Below, in pieces: positions 44,413 to 51,878 of a stretch of 64,000 nt of DNA. Made by a program: the position numbers and the translations under genes. Source of the DNA: Sulfurospirillum sp. 1612 (GTDB taxonomy: Bacteria > Campylobacterota > Campylobacteria > Campylobacterales > Sulfurospirillaceae); NCBI RefSeq assembly GCF_036556685.1, contig NZ_CP140614.1, forward strand, positions 1 to 64,000, in the 5' to 3' direction. The notes under the pieces were generated by a model. The model was not told the DNA's origin and did not search any database. It saw only the letters and a program-made list of their open reading frames with translations. Position 1 is the stretch's first letter; every line of letters starts with the position of its first letter.

Positions 44413-45144
44413 TTAATCTAATCCTATATTAATATATCGTCTCATTTTTTTTATTAATGCCCTATCAAATGATGTCATGATACGCTCTTGTGTGTCATCT
44501 TTGGTAATGTCTCCAAAAGGGTCGATGATGCAAGCATTGGATGCCATATTTTCATCGCTACTATTGGCGACTAATACATAGCATTGGTTCATAATTGCTA
44601 ACCCATTAGCTAATGTTTGTAATTGGTATTTTCTCTTTTTTGACCAATAAGCTGGAACAAATATAATATCCGCGCCCTTGGCACGTTCCCATAGCTCTAA
44701 GAAACGCAGCTCAAAACATAGCAGTATGGCGATTTTAATCCCTGCTACTTCTATGATATGAATCGTCTCATCGGTGCCTTCTGTAAAGTACTTTTCTTCA
44801 TCTCCTAGATGAAATAATCGTGCTTTTGGTCTTGAATAAATCTCTCTTCCATCAAAGAAGATTTTGACATTGTTATAATATTTTCCTTCTTGTTTTTCTG
44901 CTATTGTCAGGGCAAGAAGGCGTGCTTTTGAGAGTTCACAAATCTGAGGAAGAAAGTGTTGTGCTCGTTTTGTGTTAGCATCTAAGTGTTCATAATCGTA
45001 GCCACTCAAACAAAGTTCAGGAGCTAATATAATGGAGCCTTCTTGAGTGTTTTTGACTAAGCGGCTAAGAGTTTCAAAGTTTTCTTCAAAACTCTTAGTG
45101 GCATATTGAAATTGTAATGCAACTAACTGGTGATTAGAAGTCAT
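44413..45144 (-). CDS. Carbon-nitrogen hydrolase (nitrilase superfamily)
   Basis: The ~243-residue protein has the nitrilase-fold triad: Glu in [12 protein letters not shown], Lys in [13 protein letters not shown], and Cys in [11 protein letters not shown]. An amidase role (omega-amidase or carbamoylputrescine-amidase type) is possible, but the substrate is not clear. The start at 45144 overlaps the nrdB stop by 11 bases. A longer in-frame reading to 45255 would overlap nrdB by more than 120 bases and is not needed. Confidence 0.85.
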
Positions 45145-46156
45145 CAAATGATAAACTTCCTTTGCTATAATTTGTGACATTACCTTCGAAAAAGTTTGTT
45201 TTTTGATCGTTGAATTTTGAAAAATCATCAACCCATTTGATAGGGTGATGGGCATTGTAAATTTTCTTAAAGCCTACAGCATTGAGACGATCATCGATGA
45301 GATAATGGATGTATTCTTCAATAATTTCATCGGTGAATCCCATAATTTGATTTTGAGTAATGTATTTGCCCCATTCTATCTCTAGCGCTCCTGCGGCTTT
45401 GAACATTTCAATCACTCTCTCTTCCAAAGCTTGCGTAAATAGGTCAGGTCGCTCTTTTCTTGTTGAGTTTATCATATTTTGAAAGAGTAGCAGGTGGGTG
45501 ATCTCATCACGTTGGATGAATCGTATCATTTGTGCACTTCCTAGCATCTTGCCGGCTCTCGCTAAGGCATAAATGGCGGTAAAGCCTGCATAGAAGTAAA
45601 GTCCCTCTAAAATTTGATTTGCAAACATCGCTAAGAGAATTTTTTCATCAGTCACTTCTCCGGCTAACTCTTCATAAACGCTTGAAATATAGGCATTTTT
45701 ACGTCTGAGTATTTCATCATGTTTTTCCATCTCATAGATGAGATCTGTGTTATCACATATCGCTTCTACCATAACGGCATAAGATTTTGAGTGATTGGCC
45801 TCTTCGTATGCTTGTCGTACTAAAATTGCATTGATTTCAGGGGCCGTAATATAGGGATTAATATTGTCAGCAAGATTGTTGGTTTGAAAACTATCCATAC
45901 TGATAAGCTGAGACCAGACAAGGTCATACATGCGCTTTTCGGGATCGGTTAAATTTCTATTATAATCTACGACATCTTTCGTCGTGTCGACCTCTTTGGG
46001 AAACCAAGTATTGGCCTCCATCATATCCCATAATTTAAGGGCCCATTGATATTTGGCTTGTGTAAAATTCAAAATCCCATGAGGATTTCCACCAAATATT
46101 CTTCTTTCACTCAAGGTCTCGTTAGACCCTGGATTGTATATGTGTTTTCTGTTCAT
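45134..46156 (-). CDS. nrdB: Ribonucleoside-diphosphate reductase, class Ia beta subunit
   Basis: NrdB is the di-iron, tyrosyl-radical subunit of the aerobic ribonucleotide reductase. The 340 residues keep the ligands (E119 and H122 in [10 protein letters not shown]; Glu in [11 protein letters not shown] and H in [12 protein letters not shown]) and the radical Tyr126, four residues after H122 as in E. coli Y122. Its partner nrdA is 3.4 kb upstream, separated by the class III genes, an unusual split. About 40 bp separate it from nrdG. Confidence 0.96.
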
Positions 46157-46196: not shown

Positions 46197-46889
46197 TTAA
46201 AACTCTCGCAGTTGTATGTCAATCTTTTGATTTAGTTTTGTGGTATCAAGCGGAAGGGTTTGTGGCTCAATATCGCCGACTGTGTCGCCGGTATGGAAGT
46301 AGTTTTGTAGAAAATAACTGTTGTGATAGCCTTTGGCTGTCAAATCATCAATAATATGATTTATATCTTGTATTGTTAGCAGTCCTGAGTGTACGGTCGT
46401 CCTGGCTTCAAAAGGAAAATCTTCATCGATTAAGAACTGCAAAGTTTCTTTAAAATCATGAAAATTTTTATGGTGTGTTATGGATTCAAATTTATATGAT
46501 GGTGCTTTATAATCTAATGCAATATAATCTACCAAATTTTTTTGGACCATGGTTTTGATGCGCTTTGGATTGGTGCCATTGGTATCTATTTTGATTTTAA
46601 AGCCCAATGCCTTAATCGCTTGAGCAAAGCGTTCCAGTTGTGAATAGAGTGTGCATTCTCCTCCGCTGAGGACTACTCCGGTTAATTTTCCAACACGAGA
46701 ATTTAAAAAATCCAATGCCTTTTGTACGCTAATGCTCCCCTCTCCTAATACAATATCAGGATTATAACAATAAGGGCAACGCATATTGCATTTTGCAAAC
46801 CAAAAGATAGATGCTAGATTCTTTGGGAAATCTAGCATCGTAAATGGTGTGATGTCAAAGATTGGACTATCTTCGAGGAGATCGCTCAA
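46197..46889 (-). CDS. nrdG: Anaerobic ribonucleotide reductase activating protein (radical SAM)
   Basis: NrdG makes the glycyl radical on NrdD with a [4Fe-4S] cluster and SAM. The radical-SAM motif is CNMRCPYC in WFAKCNMRCPYCYNPD, followed by VLSGGECTL. Members of this type begin close to the FDITPFTMLDFP segment, so I place the start at a TTG at 46889 (or the TTG before it) behind GAGAGAGAA. The in-frame extension to 46997 lies inside the 54-codon gene upstream and looks like its shadow. It is about 230 residues long. Confidence 0.85.
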   Translation of the reverse strand: MSDLLEDSPIFDITPFTMLDFPKNLASIFWFAKCNMRCPYCYNPDIVLGEGSISVQKALDFLNSRVGKLTGVVLSGGECTLYSQLERFAQAIKALGFKIKIDTNGTNPKRIKTMVQKNLVDYIALDYKAPSYKFESITHHKNFHDFKETLQFLIDEDFPFEARTTVHSGLLTIQDINHIIDDLTAKGYHNSYFLQNYFHTGDTVGDIEPQTLPLDTTKLNQKIDIQLREF

Positions 46890-47031
46890 CAAATTGTTCT
46901 CTCTCTTTGTGTTCTCCAATCTTGCCAATATTAAAACTCTCAACGGGTCTGTGATAACCCATAACTCTTGTGTAAACGATACATCGTGTTCGTTCATCTT
47001 GTACTTTGTTCAGTAACTCTTCTCTACTCAT
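46867..47031 (-). CDS. Stand-alone glycyl-radical segment of anaerobic ribonucleotide reductase, 54 residues
   Basis: The short gene encodes MSREELLNKVQDERTR followed by CIVYTRVMGYHRPVESFN and IGKIGEHKERE. This matches the C-terminal glycyl-radical end of class III reductases (pattern RVxGYxRPVxxWNxGKxxE), with the radical Gly at residue 25. The upstream nrdD ends right where this segment should begin. The ATG overlaps the nrdD stop by 8 bases and has its own GGAGA ribosome binding site. C17 sits where many NrdD proteins have their last zinc Cys. So the reductase appears to be made of two polypeptides. Confidence 0.8.
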   Translation of the reverse strand: MSREELLNKVQDERTRCIVYTRVMGYHRPVESFNIGKIGEHKEREQFVERSPRR

Positions 47032-49129
47032 GTAGTTCTCCTTTATATTTTTCTATCAATTCTTTATCGCACATAGGACAAAATTCATGTTCTCCACTGA
47101 TATAGCCATGTTTTTCACATACTGAAAACACTGGAGTAATCGTGATATAAGGCATCCTGTAATTTGAAATAACATTTTTGACCATTTGTCTGCATGCCTC
47201 AATACTGCTGATACGTTCTTTCATATATAGATGCAATACCGTGCCTCCCGTATAAGCACACTGTAAATCATCTTGCAAATCAAGCGCTTCAAATGGATCA
47301 TCTGTATAGCTAGCAGGGAGTTGTGATGAGTTTGTATAATATATATTTTTGCCACTTCCTGCTTGGATGATATCGGGATATCTTTTTTTATCCTCTTTGG
47401 CAAAACGGTACGTCGTGCCTTCTGCTGGGGTTGCCTCTAAATTATAGAGATTACCCGTTTCTTCTTGATATGCTACCATCTTATGACGCATGAATTCTAA
47501 TATTTCTTGAGCAAATTTCGTTCCATATTCATCGGCAATGGTGTGTTTGTTGTCTGTAAAGTTTTCAATCATCTCATTGATGCCATTGACACCGATGGTA
47601 GAAAAATGATTATTGAATCCAGGAAGATAGCGTGCGGTATAAGGGTATAATCCGCGTTCAAACATCTCTTGCACAAACACACGTTTTTTCTCTAATGTTG
47701 ATTTTGCCAAATCCATTAAATACGCAATTTGCTCATAAAGCGCCTCTTTATCCCCTTTTTTGAGGTATCCAATTCGTGCCATATTGAGGGTGACGACACC
47801 GATACTTCCGGTCATCTCCGCACTGCCAAATAATCCACCTCCACGCTTTAGGAGTTCTCTTAAATCCAATTGCAATCTGCAACACATGCTACGCACATTA
47901 CCCGGTTTATAGGCTTTTGGATTTTCTACCAAGTTGCCATTTTCATCACGAATGTATTGGCTACCGATAAAGTTTTGAAAATAAGAAGAACCGATTTTTG
48001 CCGTATTTTCAAAAAGTACATCGGTATTTTCACCATACCAATCAAAATCTTCTGTGATATTGACCGTAGGAATCGGAAAGGTAAAAGGCTGTTCTGTTCT
48101 ATCCCCCTCTGTCATGACTTCATAATAGGCTTTATTGATGAGATTCATCTCTTTTTGAAAGTTTTTGTATGTCAGTTCTTCAAGCTTATTGACCCCGCGT
48201 TTTTTGGCTTCTGTGAGCAATTGCTCATCTTGAAGTCCTTTAAAAAGGTGCAAATCTTGACATGTTGGGGTTTGATCAGCTAAATCGGTAGGCACGGTCC
48301 AATCTATCGTGATATTGGTAAATGGACTCTGCCCCCAACGAGCAGGGACATTGAGATTGTATACAAAACTCAAAATGGCTTTTTTAATCTCGCTAAAGGG
48401 GAGTTGATCCTTAAAAACATAAGGAGCAAGGTAGGTATCAAAAGAGCTAAAAGCTTGTGCTCCTGCCCATTCACTTTGCAAGATTCCCAAGAAGTTTGCC
48501 ATCTGTCCTAATGCTTCTCTAAAGTGTTTGGGTGGGCGTGATTCTACTCTGCCTCTTACGCCATTAAACCCTTCATTTAACAGCGCCCTTAAACTCCATC
48601 CGGCACAATATGCAGTCAGACAATCAAGATCATGAATATGATAGTCTCCATTTCTGTGAGCAAACCCCTCTTCTTTTGAATAAATTTTATCGAGCCAATA
48701 ATTTGCAATGACTTTTCCGGCTGTGTTATTGACCAATCCGGCATTGGAATATCCGGTATTTGAATTGGCTTTGATGCGCCAATCGCTTTTATTGATATAC
48801 TCTTCTATGGTTTGTGTGGAGTTGACAAAGGTGGTATCTTCGTTCAATCCATCAACATGCTCTCTTTGCATTTTGTGCGTGTGACGGTAGATCATAAACG
48901 ATCTCATGACATCAAAATATCTGGCTTTGTATAATTCCTGTTCGATTAAGTCTTGTATGTCCTCAACCGCAGCGACTCTTTTTTTCTCAAGTGTCGCTAT
49001 GAGTCGATTGTACACACTCTGATCGTAGGTGACGCCTTCACTTTTAAATGCTTTTTTTATTGCATCTTGAATTTTGAATGTTTTAAACTCTTCTGTGGTA
49101 CCATCGCGTTTTAAGACTTTTTCTAACAT
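47024..49129 (-). CDS. nrdD: Anaerobic ribonucleoside-triphosphate reductase, large chain lacking the glycyl-radical end
   Basis: NrdD is the class III ribonucleotide reductase. The 701-residue protein begins with an ATP-cone domain (KVLKRDGTTEEFKTFKIQDA, to about residue 90) and has the barrel segments GDYHIHDLD, GQSPFTNITIDW and GSIGVVTLNMARI. It ends after a zinc-type motif (SVCEKHGYISGEHEFCPMC) with KELIEKYKGELHE. The usual RVxGY glycyl-radical tail is absent and is encoded by the overlapping next gene. A minus-strand -10 box lies 32 bases upstream of the ATG. Confidence 0.93.
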   Translation of the reverse strand: MLEKVLKRDGTTEEFKTFKIQDAIKKAFKSEGVTYDQSVYNRLIATLEKKRVAAVEDIQDLIEQELYKARYFDVMRSFMIYRHTHKMQREHVDGLNEDTTFVNSTQTIEEYINKSDWRIKANSNTGYSNAGLVNNTAGKVIANYWLDKIYSKEEGFAHRNGDYHIHDLDCLTAYCAGWSLRALLNEGFNGVRGRVESRPPKHFREALGQMANFLGILQSEWAGAQAFSSFDTYLAPYVFKDQLPFSEIKKAILSFVYNLNVPARWGQSPFTNITIDWTVPTDLADQTPTCQDLHLFKGLQDEQLLTEAKKRGVNKLEELTYKNFQKEMNLINKAYYEVMTEGDRTEQPFTFPIPTVNITEDFDWYGENTDVLFENTAKIGSSYFQNFIGSQYIRDENGNLVENPKAYKPGNVRSMCCRLQLDLRELLKRGGGLFGSAEMTGSIGVVTLNMARIGYLKKGDKEALYEQIAYLMDLAKSTLEKKRVFVQEMFERGLYPYTARYLPGFNNHFSTIGVNGINEMIENFTDNKHTIADEYGTKFAQEILEFMRHKMVAYQEETGNLYNLEATPAEGTTYRFAKEDKKRYPDIIQAGSGKNIYYTNSSQLPASYTDDPFEALDLQDDLQCAYTGGTVLHLYMKERISSIEACRQMVKNVISNYRMPYITITPVFSVCEKHGYISGEHEFCPMCDKELIEKYKGELHE

Positions 49130-49511: not shown

Positions 49512-51878
49512 TTATTGGCACCCTTCGCATTCGATACTTCTATCGGCAACATCAAGTTGACTTTCTGGAGATTGACTTCTGAGATAATATGTCGATTTTA
49601 TACCCAGTTCCCATCCTAGCATATAGATGTCGTTTAGGTATTTTCCGCTCGCTTTATCTAAAGTAATAAAGATATTGAGACTTTGTCCTTGATCAATCCA
49701 CTTTTGACGAATGGCTCCGGCTTTGATGAGTAGCCGTTGGTCCAACTCATATGCTGGAGTATAGTAATTCCACGTTTCTGGATTGAGTTTCGGCACGACG
49801 ACGGGAATCATACCGGAGAGATTTTCTTCAAACCATTTTCTTTTGTACACGGGTTCGATGGTTTGTGTGGTACCCACAAGAATCGAAATAGAGCTGGTTG
49901 GCGCAATTGCCATGAGGTATCCATTTCTCATACCCGATTTCATGACTTGTGCGCGTAAACTTTCCCAATCACAGCTGTAGCCAAACAATCCTCCCCGATC
50001 TACTAATTTTTTAGCTTTTTCGTTGGCGGTATCTATAGGGAAAATTCCTCTGCTCCATTTTGAGCCTTCAAAATCTGGATACGCTCCTTTTTCGATAGCA
50101 AGATTGGATGAGGCTTTGATGACATTGTAGCTGATGAGCTCCATCACTTCATCAATCTTGGCAAAGTGGTCGTAACTTCCCCATTCTATTTGTTGTTCTG
50201 CTAACATTTGTGCTTCTCCCATGACGCCAAGACCGATGGAGCGGGATTGAAGGTTGGTGTGTTTTACCTTAGCATGAGGATAGAAATTGAGGTCTATCAC
50301 GTTATCTAACATTCTGGTCGCAATTGGGATGACACGTTCAATATCTTCTTGGGTATTAATTTTGGAGAGATTGACGCTCGCAAGATTACATACGGCGGTC
50401 TTGCCTTCATTCATCTCTTTTTCTACAATAAAGACATTTTTCCCATCGATATTATCGAGGGCGGTGATTTTTTTGGCTTTCTTTTCAATATTGCCATTGA
50501 TGATGACGGTATCCTCTTCTTCAAACGTCTCAAAGCTTCCATCATCAAAAACTACTTTGATTTTATAATGATTGGGCTCTGTATTTTGAAATATTTCCGT
50601 ACATAGGTTTGAACTTCTGATAATTCCGGCGTGGTCATTTGGATTTGCTTTGTTTGCGTTATCTTTAAAGCATAAAAATGGACTACCACTTTCAAAATAG
50701 TTTAGAATGATTTTTTTCCATAACTCTTTGGCTCGAATGTGCTCTTTTGGGATGCTGTCATCCTGTTCGTACTCTAAATATTTTTTTTCAAATTCAGCGC
50801 CATAAAGTGATGGCAGGTCGCTAACGTTTGCGGGATCAAAAAGAGTCCATATCTCATCATTTTGGGCACGTTTCATAAACAAGTCATTGATCCAGAGTGC
50901 TGGAAAGAGATCATGAGCACGTCGTCGCTCTTCTCCTGAATTCTTTTTGAGATCCAAAAAGTCAGATATATCCATATGCCACGGTTCAATATATACAGCA
51001 ATAGCTCCTTTTCTCGTTCCTAGCTGATCGACGGCAATAGCAATATCATTGGTGATTTTCAAAAATGGGATAATCCCTCCGGCTGCATTTTTATGCCCAT
51101 CAATCATACCTCCCATAGAGCGTACAATATTCCAATCCCAGCCGATTCCACCACCAAATTTACTCAAAAGTGCCATCTCTTTATAGGAATCAAAAATACC
51201 TTCGATATTATCAGGGGTACTTCCGATATAGCAAGAGCTTAGTTGGTGTCTTGGTGTCCGTGCATTTGAAAGTGTTGGTGTGGCTAACATAACTTCGAAT
51301 TTAGATATTAAGTCGTAGAATTTTTTAGCCCAATCTTGACAGTTTAGTTCATTTTGTGCCAAGAACATTGCGATAGCCATGAACATATGCTGTGGCAATT
51401 CTATTGGAGCACCTTTGGAATTTTTGATAAGATAACGATCATAAAGTGTTTTGATTCCCAGATAAGTAAATTGAAAATCGCGCTCTGGTTTAATATATTG
51501 GTCTAAATCATCTAAATCATATTTCTCTTTGAGGCCCAATAAAATACGCCCCTCTTTTTCGCCTCTTGCAAAGTAGTCTGCCAATTTACCATATCCTGTA
51601 AATTGATTGACCTTGTGATACAAGTCGTACAAAAACAGACGCGCGGCTACAAACGTCCAATTGGGTCTATCGATGTCAATTTTATCGACGGCCGTTTTGA
51701 TGAGTGTTTTTTGTATCTCTTCGGTTGTAATCTTATCTCTAAATTGTATTTTTGCATCGACTTCTAGCTCACTTTGGCTCACGTTTTCTAAGCCTTCTAT
51801 TGCGGAGAATGTGTATTTTTGTATTTTAGATATATCAAGGGGTTCAATTCTACCATTTCTTTTTTGTACTGTTAACAT
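49512..51878 (-). CDS. nrdA: Ribonucleoside-diphosphate reductase, class Ia alpha subunit
   Basis: NrdA is the catalytic subunit of aerobic ribonucleotide reductase. The 788 residues include an N-terminal ATP-cone (VQKRNGRIEPLDISKIQKY), an active-site Cys in HQLSSCYIGSTPDN, SNLCTEIFQ, the loop-2 region NLASVNLSK, and the C-terminal redox Cys pair CEGC in the last five residues. It lies 17 bases after purB and ends at a strong terminator. Its partner nrdB is beyond the class III genes. Confidence 0.97.
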   Translation of the reverse strand: MLTVQKRNGRIEPLDISKIQKYTFSAIEGLENVSQSELEVDAKIQFRDKITTEEIQKTLIKTAVDKIDIDRPNWTFVAARLFLYDLYHKVNQFTGYGKLADYFARGEKEGRILLGLKEKYDLDDLDQYIKPERDFQFTYLGIKTLYDRYLIKNSKGAPIELPQHMFMAIAMFLAQNELNCQDWAKKFYDLISKFEVMLATPTLSNARTPRHQLSSCYIGSTPDNIEGIFDSYKEMALLSKFGGGIGWDWNIVRSMGGMIDGHKNAAGGIIPFLKITNDIAIAVDQLGTRKGAIAVYIEPWHMDISDFLDLKKNSGEERRRAHDLFPALWINDLFMKRAQNDEIWTLFDPANVSDLPSLYGAEFEKKYLEYEQDDSIPKEHIRAKELWKKIILNYFESGSPFLCFKDNANKANPNDHAGIIRSSNLCTEIFQNTEPNHYKIKVVFDDGSFETFEEEDTVIINGNIEKKAKKITALDNIDGKNVFIVEKEMNEGKTAVCNLASVNLSKINTQEDIERVIPIATRMLDNVIDLNFYPHAKVKHTNLQSRSIGLGVMGEAQMLAEQQIEWGSYDHFAKIDEVMELISYNVIKASSNLAIEKGAYPDFEGSKWSRGIFPIDTANEKAKKLVDRGGLFGYSCDWESLRAQVMKSGMRNGYLMAIAPTSSISILVGTTQTIEPVYKRKWFEENLSGMIPVVVPKLNPETWNYYTPAYELDQRLLIKAGAIRQKWIDQGQSLNIFITLDKASGKYLNDIYMLGWELGIKSTYYLRSQSPESQLDVADRSIECEGCQ

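Follow-up and report, generated by a model that had tools for sequence, protein, structure and literature searches.

The nrdD, tail and nrdG genes

In the window, by which we mean the whole 64,000-nucleotide stretch of Sulfurospirillum sp. 1612 DNA analysed here (NZ_CP140614.1, positions 1 to 64,000), an anaerobic ribonucleotide reductase (RNR) cluster comprises nrdD, a short gene carrying a glycyl radical motif, and nrdG. Its features are as follows:

47024..49129, minus strand: nrdD, catalytic subunit of 701 aa with ATP-cone (aa 4-86), RNR barrel, SMCCR motif and zinc domain CxxHGY...CPMC; without radical glycine
46867..47031, minus strand: glycyl-radical tail gene of 54 aa, with the putative radical Gly25 in TRVMGY and an invariant Cys17
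47037..47041, minus strand: GGAGA ribosome-binding site of the tail gene, within the 3' end of nrdD, as seen in the sequence itself
47024..47031, minus strand: 8-nt overlap of the nrdD stop and the tail start (ATGAGTAG)
46197..46997, minus strand: nrdG, radical SAM activase (NrdG2, TIGR02495, 179 bits), directly downstream of the tail gene

Both frames were found as claimed in the first-pass annotation, which had described the radical segment as a 54-codon gene of its own, overlapping nrdD and possessing its own GGAGA site; the latter lies five bases upstream of the ATG. The same annotation had the 701-residue NrdD stopping directly after CPMC without a radical tail, which is correct as to the missing tail and incorrect as to 'directly': the protein ends ...FSVCEKHGYISGEHEFCPMC followed by 14 more residues (DKELIEKYKGELHE), its C-terminus reading ...FSVCEKHGYISGEHEFCPMCDKELIEKYKGELHE. 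No mobile element or remnant was identified at the window junction, the 8-nt overlap being without inserted sequence. As listed, the nrdG frame opens at an ATG inside the tail gene; the TIGR02495 profile match begins at aa 47, and the true start probably lies further in, near where the tail gene ends. Class I RNR genes flank the cluster, with nrdB (45134-46156, minus strand) downstream of nrdG and nrdA (49512-51878, minus strand) upstream of nrdD, aerobic and anaerobic RNR genes being interleaved on one strand.

The Pfam NRDD profile (PF13597, 562 positions) aligns to the window NrdD over positions 2-536 (548 bits) and to the 54-residue product (MSREELLNKVQDERTRCIVYTRVMGYHRPVESFNIGKIGEHKEREQFVERSPRR) over positions 532-562 (E 8.9e-6), and NF006126 (684 positions) is divided between them at 2-659 and 650-682. 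Against NF006126 the window NrdD scores 1093.8 bits (cut-off 548), and the 54-mer alone falls just below the Pfam cut-off (25.1 vs 26.2 bits). Low-E-value matches of the 54-mer in Pfam and NCBIfam are to NrdD-type families only, with no homology to the C-terminus of pyruvate formate-lyase (PFL) found in either, and a search of solved structures with the 54-mer alone returned chance matches only. The radical glycine loop is absent from the NrdD chain and present on the 54-residue frame. NrdD retains its ATP-cone, the YCAGW cysteines, the zinc cysteines and RSMCCRL, in which the SMCCR cysteines are invariant across 28 aligned homologues; the zinc domain (CxxHGY...CxxC) was recognised as a sequence motif, from which metal binding is inferred. 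The MCCR motif, together with a Phe at the position of Thermotoga maritima Ile359 in a pairwise alignment, fits the NrdDh4 subgroup as defined previously (PMC4493059). Tails keep TRVMGY, RP, FN, GK, E, R and F throughout, and the radical motif is invariant in 18 diverse tails.

Recurrence of the split and independence of the tail gene

A survey of 397 genomes of the class Campylobacteria, in which PF13597 matches were compared with matches to a tail alignment, returned the former in 207 genomes and the latter in 185, all of which also match NRDD. Split NrdD with a separate tail occurs in about 181 of the 397, the break falling at the same protein position; this figure derives from comparing the two match lists, with 68 split loci read individually. 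Also among the 185 are three genomes with fused genes (L020, L021, L024) and a draft with a tail only (G354). The 22 NRDD genomes that lack this tail carry a different, fused NrdD of the RITGY type (17 genomes, L003-L019), another NrdD type (G225, G260), an nrdD fragment (G123) or an nrdD cut by a contig end (G331, G355). No intact split-type nrdD in a complete context was found without a tail among the 397 class genomes (contig ends excepted); the strict company that a separate, conserved tail gene keeps with split nrdD is directly observed, and the recurrence of the split at the same junction is far beyond chance. The first-pass annotation had suggested searching Campylobacterota for the same split at the same point, which is indeed recovered, and had held that a continuous NrdD in close relatives would refute it; those relatives are themselves split, and fused homologues are few and nested within split clades. 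In one fused protein, L020 (G245), the zinc site reads CxxC...CxxC and the tail cysteine is missing, though its genus is usually split. At L256 (G329) and L251 (G224) nrdD is broken into two further frames, and another copy of the cluster in G224 is intact.

The same split was also found in plasmid records of Sulfuricurvum kujiense, Cupriavidus necator H16 (pHG1), Sulfuricystis, Bradyrhizobium and Paracoccus; where PLSDB gives genes, it labels the small one 'nrdD anaerobic ribonucleoside-triphosphate reductase'. In C. necator H16 the small gene (H16_RS32675) has 66 codons and is located on pHG1 between nrdD and nrdG. Two Allochromatium plasmids (NC_013852.1 and NZ_AP024564.1) carry tail genes. 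A scan of GTDB genome contigs yielded 80 named loci, and the scorable loci among L093-L182 comprise 64 that are split, 21 that are fused and 2 with no tail nearby. Split loci include those of Pseudomonas, Stutzerimonas, Acidovorax and Hydrogenophaga, as well as metagenome-assembled genomes labelled Acidobacteria, Elusimicrobia and Omnitrophota, and the fused loci of the GTDB scan belong mostly to Actinomycetota. Within the phylum Pseudomonadota, NrdD of this type occurs in 12 of 299 genomes, about nine of them split as read from the match table. The split is not peculiar to one genome or phylum, and is the usual state of the whole NrdD subtype.

A sequencing error or decaying pseudogene in this genome, which has no specific support beyond the extra nrdD breaks in G329 and one G224 copy, can be given practically no credence: it is rejected on account of the recurrence of the split, at the same position in about 181 class genomes and many Pseudomonadota, and is further opposed by the conserved reading frame of the tail core (pN/pS 0.32, a rough value with synonymous sites near saturation) and by the ATP-cone, catalytic cysteine motifs and zinc site retained in NrdD.

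Programmed frameshifting or stop readthrough, joining both frames into a full-length NrdD, would suit the many loci at which the frames overlap or nearly abut, and those (L022, L023, L025-L028, L034) at which nrdD and tail are in frame across the stop. Against this, tail starts are spread evenly over the three phases relative to the nrdD end (24/20/24 in Campylobacterota, 24/20/20 elsewhere), at spacings that extend from -41 to +1160 nt (in most relatives the junction measures between a few and about 200 nt), and TAA, TAG and TGA all occur between the two genes across loci. Most tails are equipped with an ATG and a ribosome site of their own, the chosen start being ATG in 131 of 132, with the caveat that the count of ribosome sites is biased by picking the start with the best site from few candidates. 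In five genomes (G193, G078, G169, G200 and G368) the tail gene immediately precedes nrdG and is separated from nrdD by tens of kb or more, and in four of these it is on the opposite strand to nrdD; tail and nrdD are located at 10.2 kb and 69 kb in G193, and at 10.6 kb and 135 kb in G169, and no tail remnant remains beside nrdD in the three genomes checked (G193, G078, G169). At such loci the tail cannot simply extend nrdD, and because tail genes occur far from nrdD and in phages, recoding is impossible for them. Given the even frames, variable spacing, mixture of stops, and distant and phage copies, frameshifting and readthrough fail as general explanations and are rejected as the general mechanism, with hardly any likelihood remaining to them; assembly in trans, itself an inference, is therefore the only simple reading left.

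On trees of the NrdD body, changes between the split and fused states number 6 (161 rows, FastTree) or 7 (73 rows, IQ-TREE). Fused rows are nested among split ones in these trees, which therefore favour an old split with several re-fusions, subject to uncertainty in the root and long branches. The chain is continuous in a few relatives (L020, L021, L024 and members of the Actinomycetota), so function does not require separation.

A further possibility is that NrdD has its own radical glycine in the HGY of the zinc domain, the 54-mer being merely a repair part or regulator. Siedow et al. reportedly found in 1999 that the G650A substitution in C. necator NrdD abolishes function, and reportedly took residue 650 as the radical site; in the C. 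necator protein encoded on pHG1 (L094) this residue is the Gly of HGY, and the reported result favours such an arrangement. Fused relatives nevertheless have both HGY and RVMGY in one chain, so HGY is the zinc knuckle, and the absence of any intact split-type nrdD without a tail in a complete context likewise weighs against a dispensable 54-mer. In T. maritima NrdD the zinc site is at the HGY region and the radical glycine, Gly621, in the C-terminal loop (PMC4493059). We regard a radical on HGY as very unlikely.

Lone tail genes in prophages and viruses

Three host genomes with split nrdD possess additional lone tails in phage surroundings: beside Rz-like spanins and DUF5675 in G078, beside Mu Gam and GemA in G174, and near a reverse transcriptase in G349. 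The host-genome loci with a lone tail gene outside the nrdD locus are L241, L242, L243, L245, L250 and L253, several beside clear phage genes of these kinds. In IMG/VR we identified 178 tail relatives; for 79 of the best 80 of these loci the retrieved flanks contain no NrdD, so that phage copies without nrdD nearby are a matter of direct observation. Searches of 35 whole viral records (21-212 kb) returned nothing but the tail stretch in 34, and NrdG2 exceeded its cut-off in 1 of 35, the one with a complete, interrupted nrdD. At L285 (viral record G416) a complete nrdD with long insertions, probably inteins, occurs with a separate tail and nrdG. Since virus records may be fragments, they do not prove that each complete virus is without nrdD. 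Named phage records contained no lone tail, their sole match being the end of a nearly contiguous NrdD.

The 78 analysable viral loci fall into 40 gene contexts without common neighbours; several tails adjoin endolysin, amidase, portal or tape-measure genes, and lysis genes are often among them. Viral tails are of both host types, resembling either those of Campylobacterota (VYTRVMGYHRPVESFN) or those of Pseudomonadota (EVWTRVMGYHRPVSSFN). In four phage tails (L300, L334, L335, L336) the N-terminus is extended by a Cys-rich stretch (C..L...C..GR..P.DC..C..Y), which may be a second metal site. All six tested tails (window and phages) match positions 110-162 of the 179 in phrog_4132, with E from 4e-9 to 4e-12.

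The lone copies suggest that the tail is an interchangeable, cheaply replaced component. Most likely, we infer, phage and prophage 54-mers keep or restore host dNTP synthesis during infection, and we think it fairly probable that the lone tails serve phages as such spare parts. They could instead act as inhibitors or decoys in competition with the 54-mer of the host, in keeping with their occurrence without nrdD or nrdG and with the Cys-rich extension on some of them. An inhibitor would not require a radical glycine, however, and all 79 viral copies examined have TRVMGY unchanged, with 75 of them retaining the tail cysteine; inhibition therefore appears improbable.

A proposed two-polypeptide reductase and its relation to known systems

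Glycyl radical enzymes are textbook one-chain enzymes, with the radical glycine in the active-site polypeptide. Here the radical is apparently on a separate protein of roughly 50-67 residues throughout a whole branch of this essential enzyme that includes Campylobacterota, Pseudomonas, Cupriavidus and Paracoccus. We consider it very probable that the class III RNR described here obligatorily comprises two polypeptides, one of them a separate glycyl-radical subunit, a proposal for which we found no biochemical or proteomic evidence.

According to this proposal, the operon would encode a class III (anaerobic) RNR in which NrdD provides the catalytic barrel, ATP-cone and zinc domain, and in which the 54-residue subunit, translated from its own start codon, would dock at the zinc end of NrdD and insert its radical loop (RVMG25Y) into the barrel. 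NrdG would place the glycyl radical on Gly25, a site that we infer, and from there the radical would move to the active-site cysteines and start reduction, catalysis being presumed to follow other class III RNRs. Glycyl radical enzymes are destroyed by oxygen, which cuts their chain at the radical glycine. In class III RNRs oxygen cleaves the chain at the radical (PMC3019208), and damage would therefore be restricted to a cheap separate peptide; confined to a 54-mer whose replaceability is likewise inferred, it would spare the 700-residue subunit. This could suit microaerophiles and facultative denitrifiers, and might give phages a reason to carry the tail.

NrdD and tail of L026 were modelled as one joined chain, with the junction stop TAA read as Gln, using an alignment of 28 rows without rows from plasmid or phage records. 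The AlphaFold model has a mean pLDDT of 83 and a pTM of 0.80, with a pLDDT of about 85-91 over the tail core (residues 711-750), and the PDB entries that it matches best are solved class III RNRs (9d3x, 8p23, 4coj). As a joined chain rather than two, the model indicates that the segments are compatible and is not evidence of binding in trans. Cys17, a candidate zinc ligand, is invariant in all 132 split tails, and all 132 split pairs combine CxxH with the tail cysteine, with one CxxC protein lacking that cysteine; the CxxH...CxxC set of NrdD could suffice alone for zinc. Because the fused relatives L098-L100 have CxxH without a tail cysteine, a role for Cys17 as a zinc ligand is undecided on sequence grounds.

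If the proposal is true, radical formation, oxygen damage and repair would become studiable on a peptide that can be made synthetically, and NrdD preparations from split organisms without the small gene should be inactive. The reported assignment of C. necator G650 as a radical site may need re-examination. The phage copies provide a testable function for part of a PHROG of unknown function, and suggest a new route for securing dNTPs in low-oxygen hosts. With the same reservation as for the spare-part role, it is reasonably likely that a widespread class III RNR lineage has an exchangeable radical subunit, and that phages and prophages regularly provide just this subunit so that the host RNR can be run or repaired, which would represent a general economy of the 'replaceable radical' and a previously unassigned phage auxiliary gene.

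Databases already annotate both NrdD pieces. A literature search found no description of split NrdD or of phage tails; most subscription papers were outside its scope, and prior description is not excluded. The tails match the C-terminal part of phrog_4132 (function unknown), which has about 110 positions before the tail. Among the closest systems is the NrdDh-type class III RNR (T. maritima NrdD, PDB 4coi/4u3e; NCBIfam PRK08270/NF006126), with which the window system shares the fold of barrel and zinc domain and an NrdG2 partner; most NrdDh members carry an ATP-cone, and the MCCR motif and finger-loop Phe of the window protein fit NrdDh4 (PMC4493059). T. maritima NrdD and fused PRK08270 proteins carry the radical glycine at their own C-terminus, whereas here it belongs to a separate 54-residue protein, and the window system is thus an NrdD system that fails one defining NrdD feature, a radical loop on the same chain. 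The split class II RNR NrdJa/NrdJb of Pseudomonas aeruginosa similarly consists of two cooperating chains from normal genes (PMC4860495, PMC9669993), but is of another RNR class, and what its small piece supplies is a folded zinc-finger domain rather than the radical site. Inteins, introns or homing endonucleases interrupt other RNR genes, such as Aeh1 nrdA and Lactococcus phage 949 nrdD, which also encode one enzyme in several coding pieces (PMC3653736); no such element is present in the 8-nt overlap, and the break, between zinc domain and radical loop, is conserved over phyla.

The remaining parallel is with YfiD/GrcA and phage T4 Y06I, the spare part of PFL, which are likewise small free-standing proteins with a glycyl radical segment, a phage version existing in both systems. 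In the case of YfiD, the partner enzyme possesses a radical site, and the small protein substitutes for that segment once it is damaged; YfiD also duplicates a PFL strand, and its N-terminus is a disordered stretch of 60 residues (PMC8683613). Researchers on YfiD have noted that further glycyl radical enzymes may have spare parts too, though none has been validated (PMC8683613). The likeness to GrcA/YfiD drawn in the first-pass annotation extends to a small free-standing radical-loop protein, and stops short of PFL homology and of a partner with its own radical site. Unlike YfiD, the tail belongs by sequence to NrdD and not to PFL, and since the large NrdD chain never carries the segment, the small protein would be obligatory.
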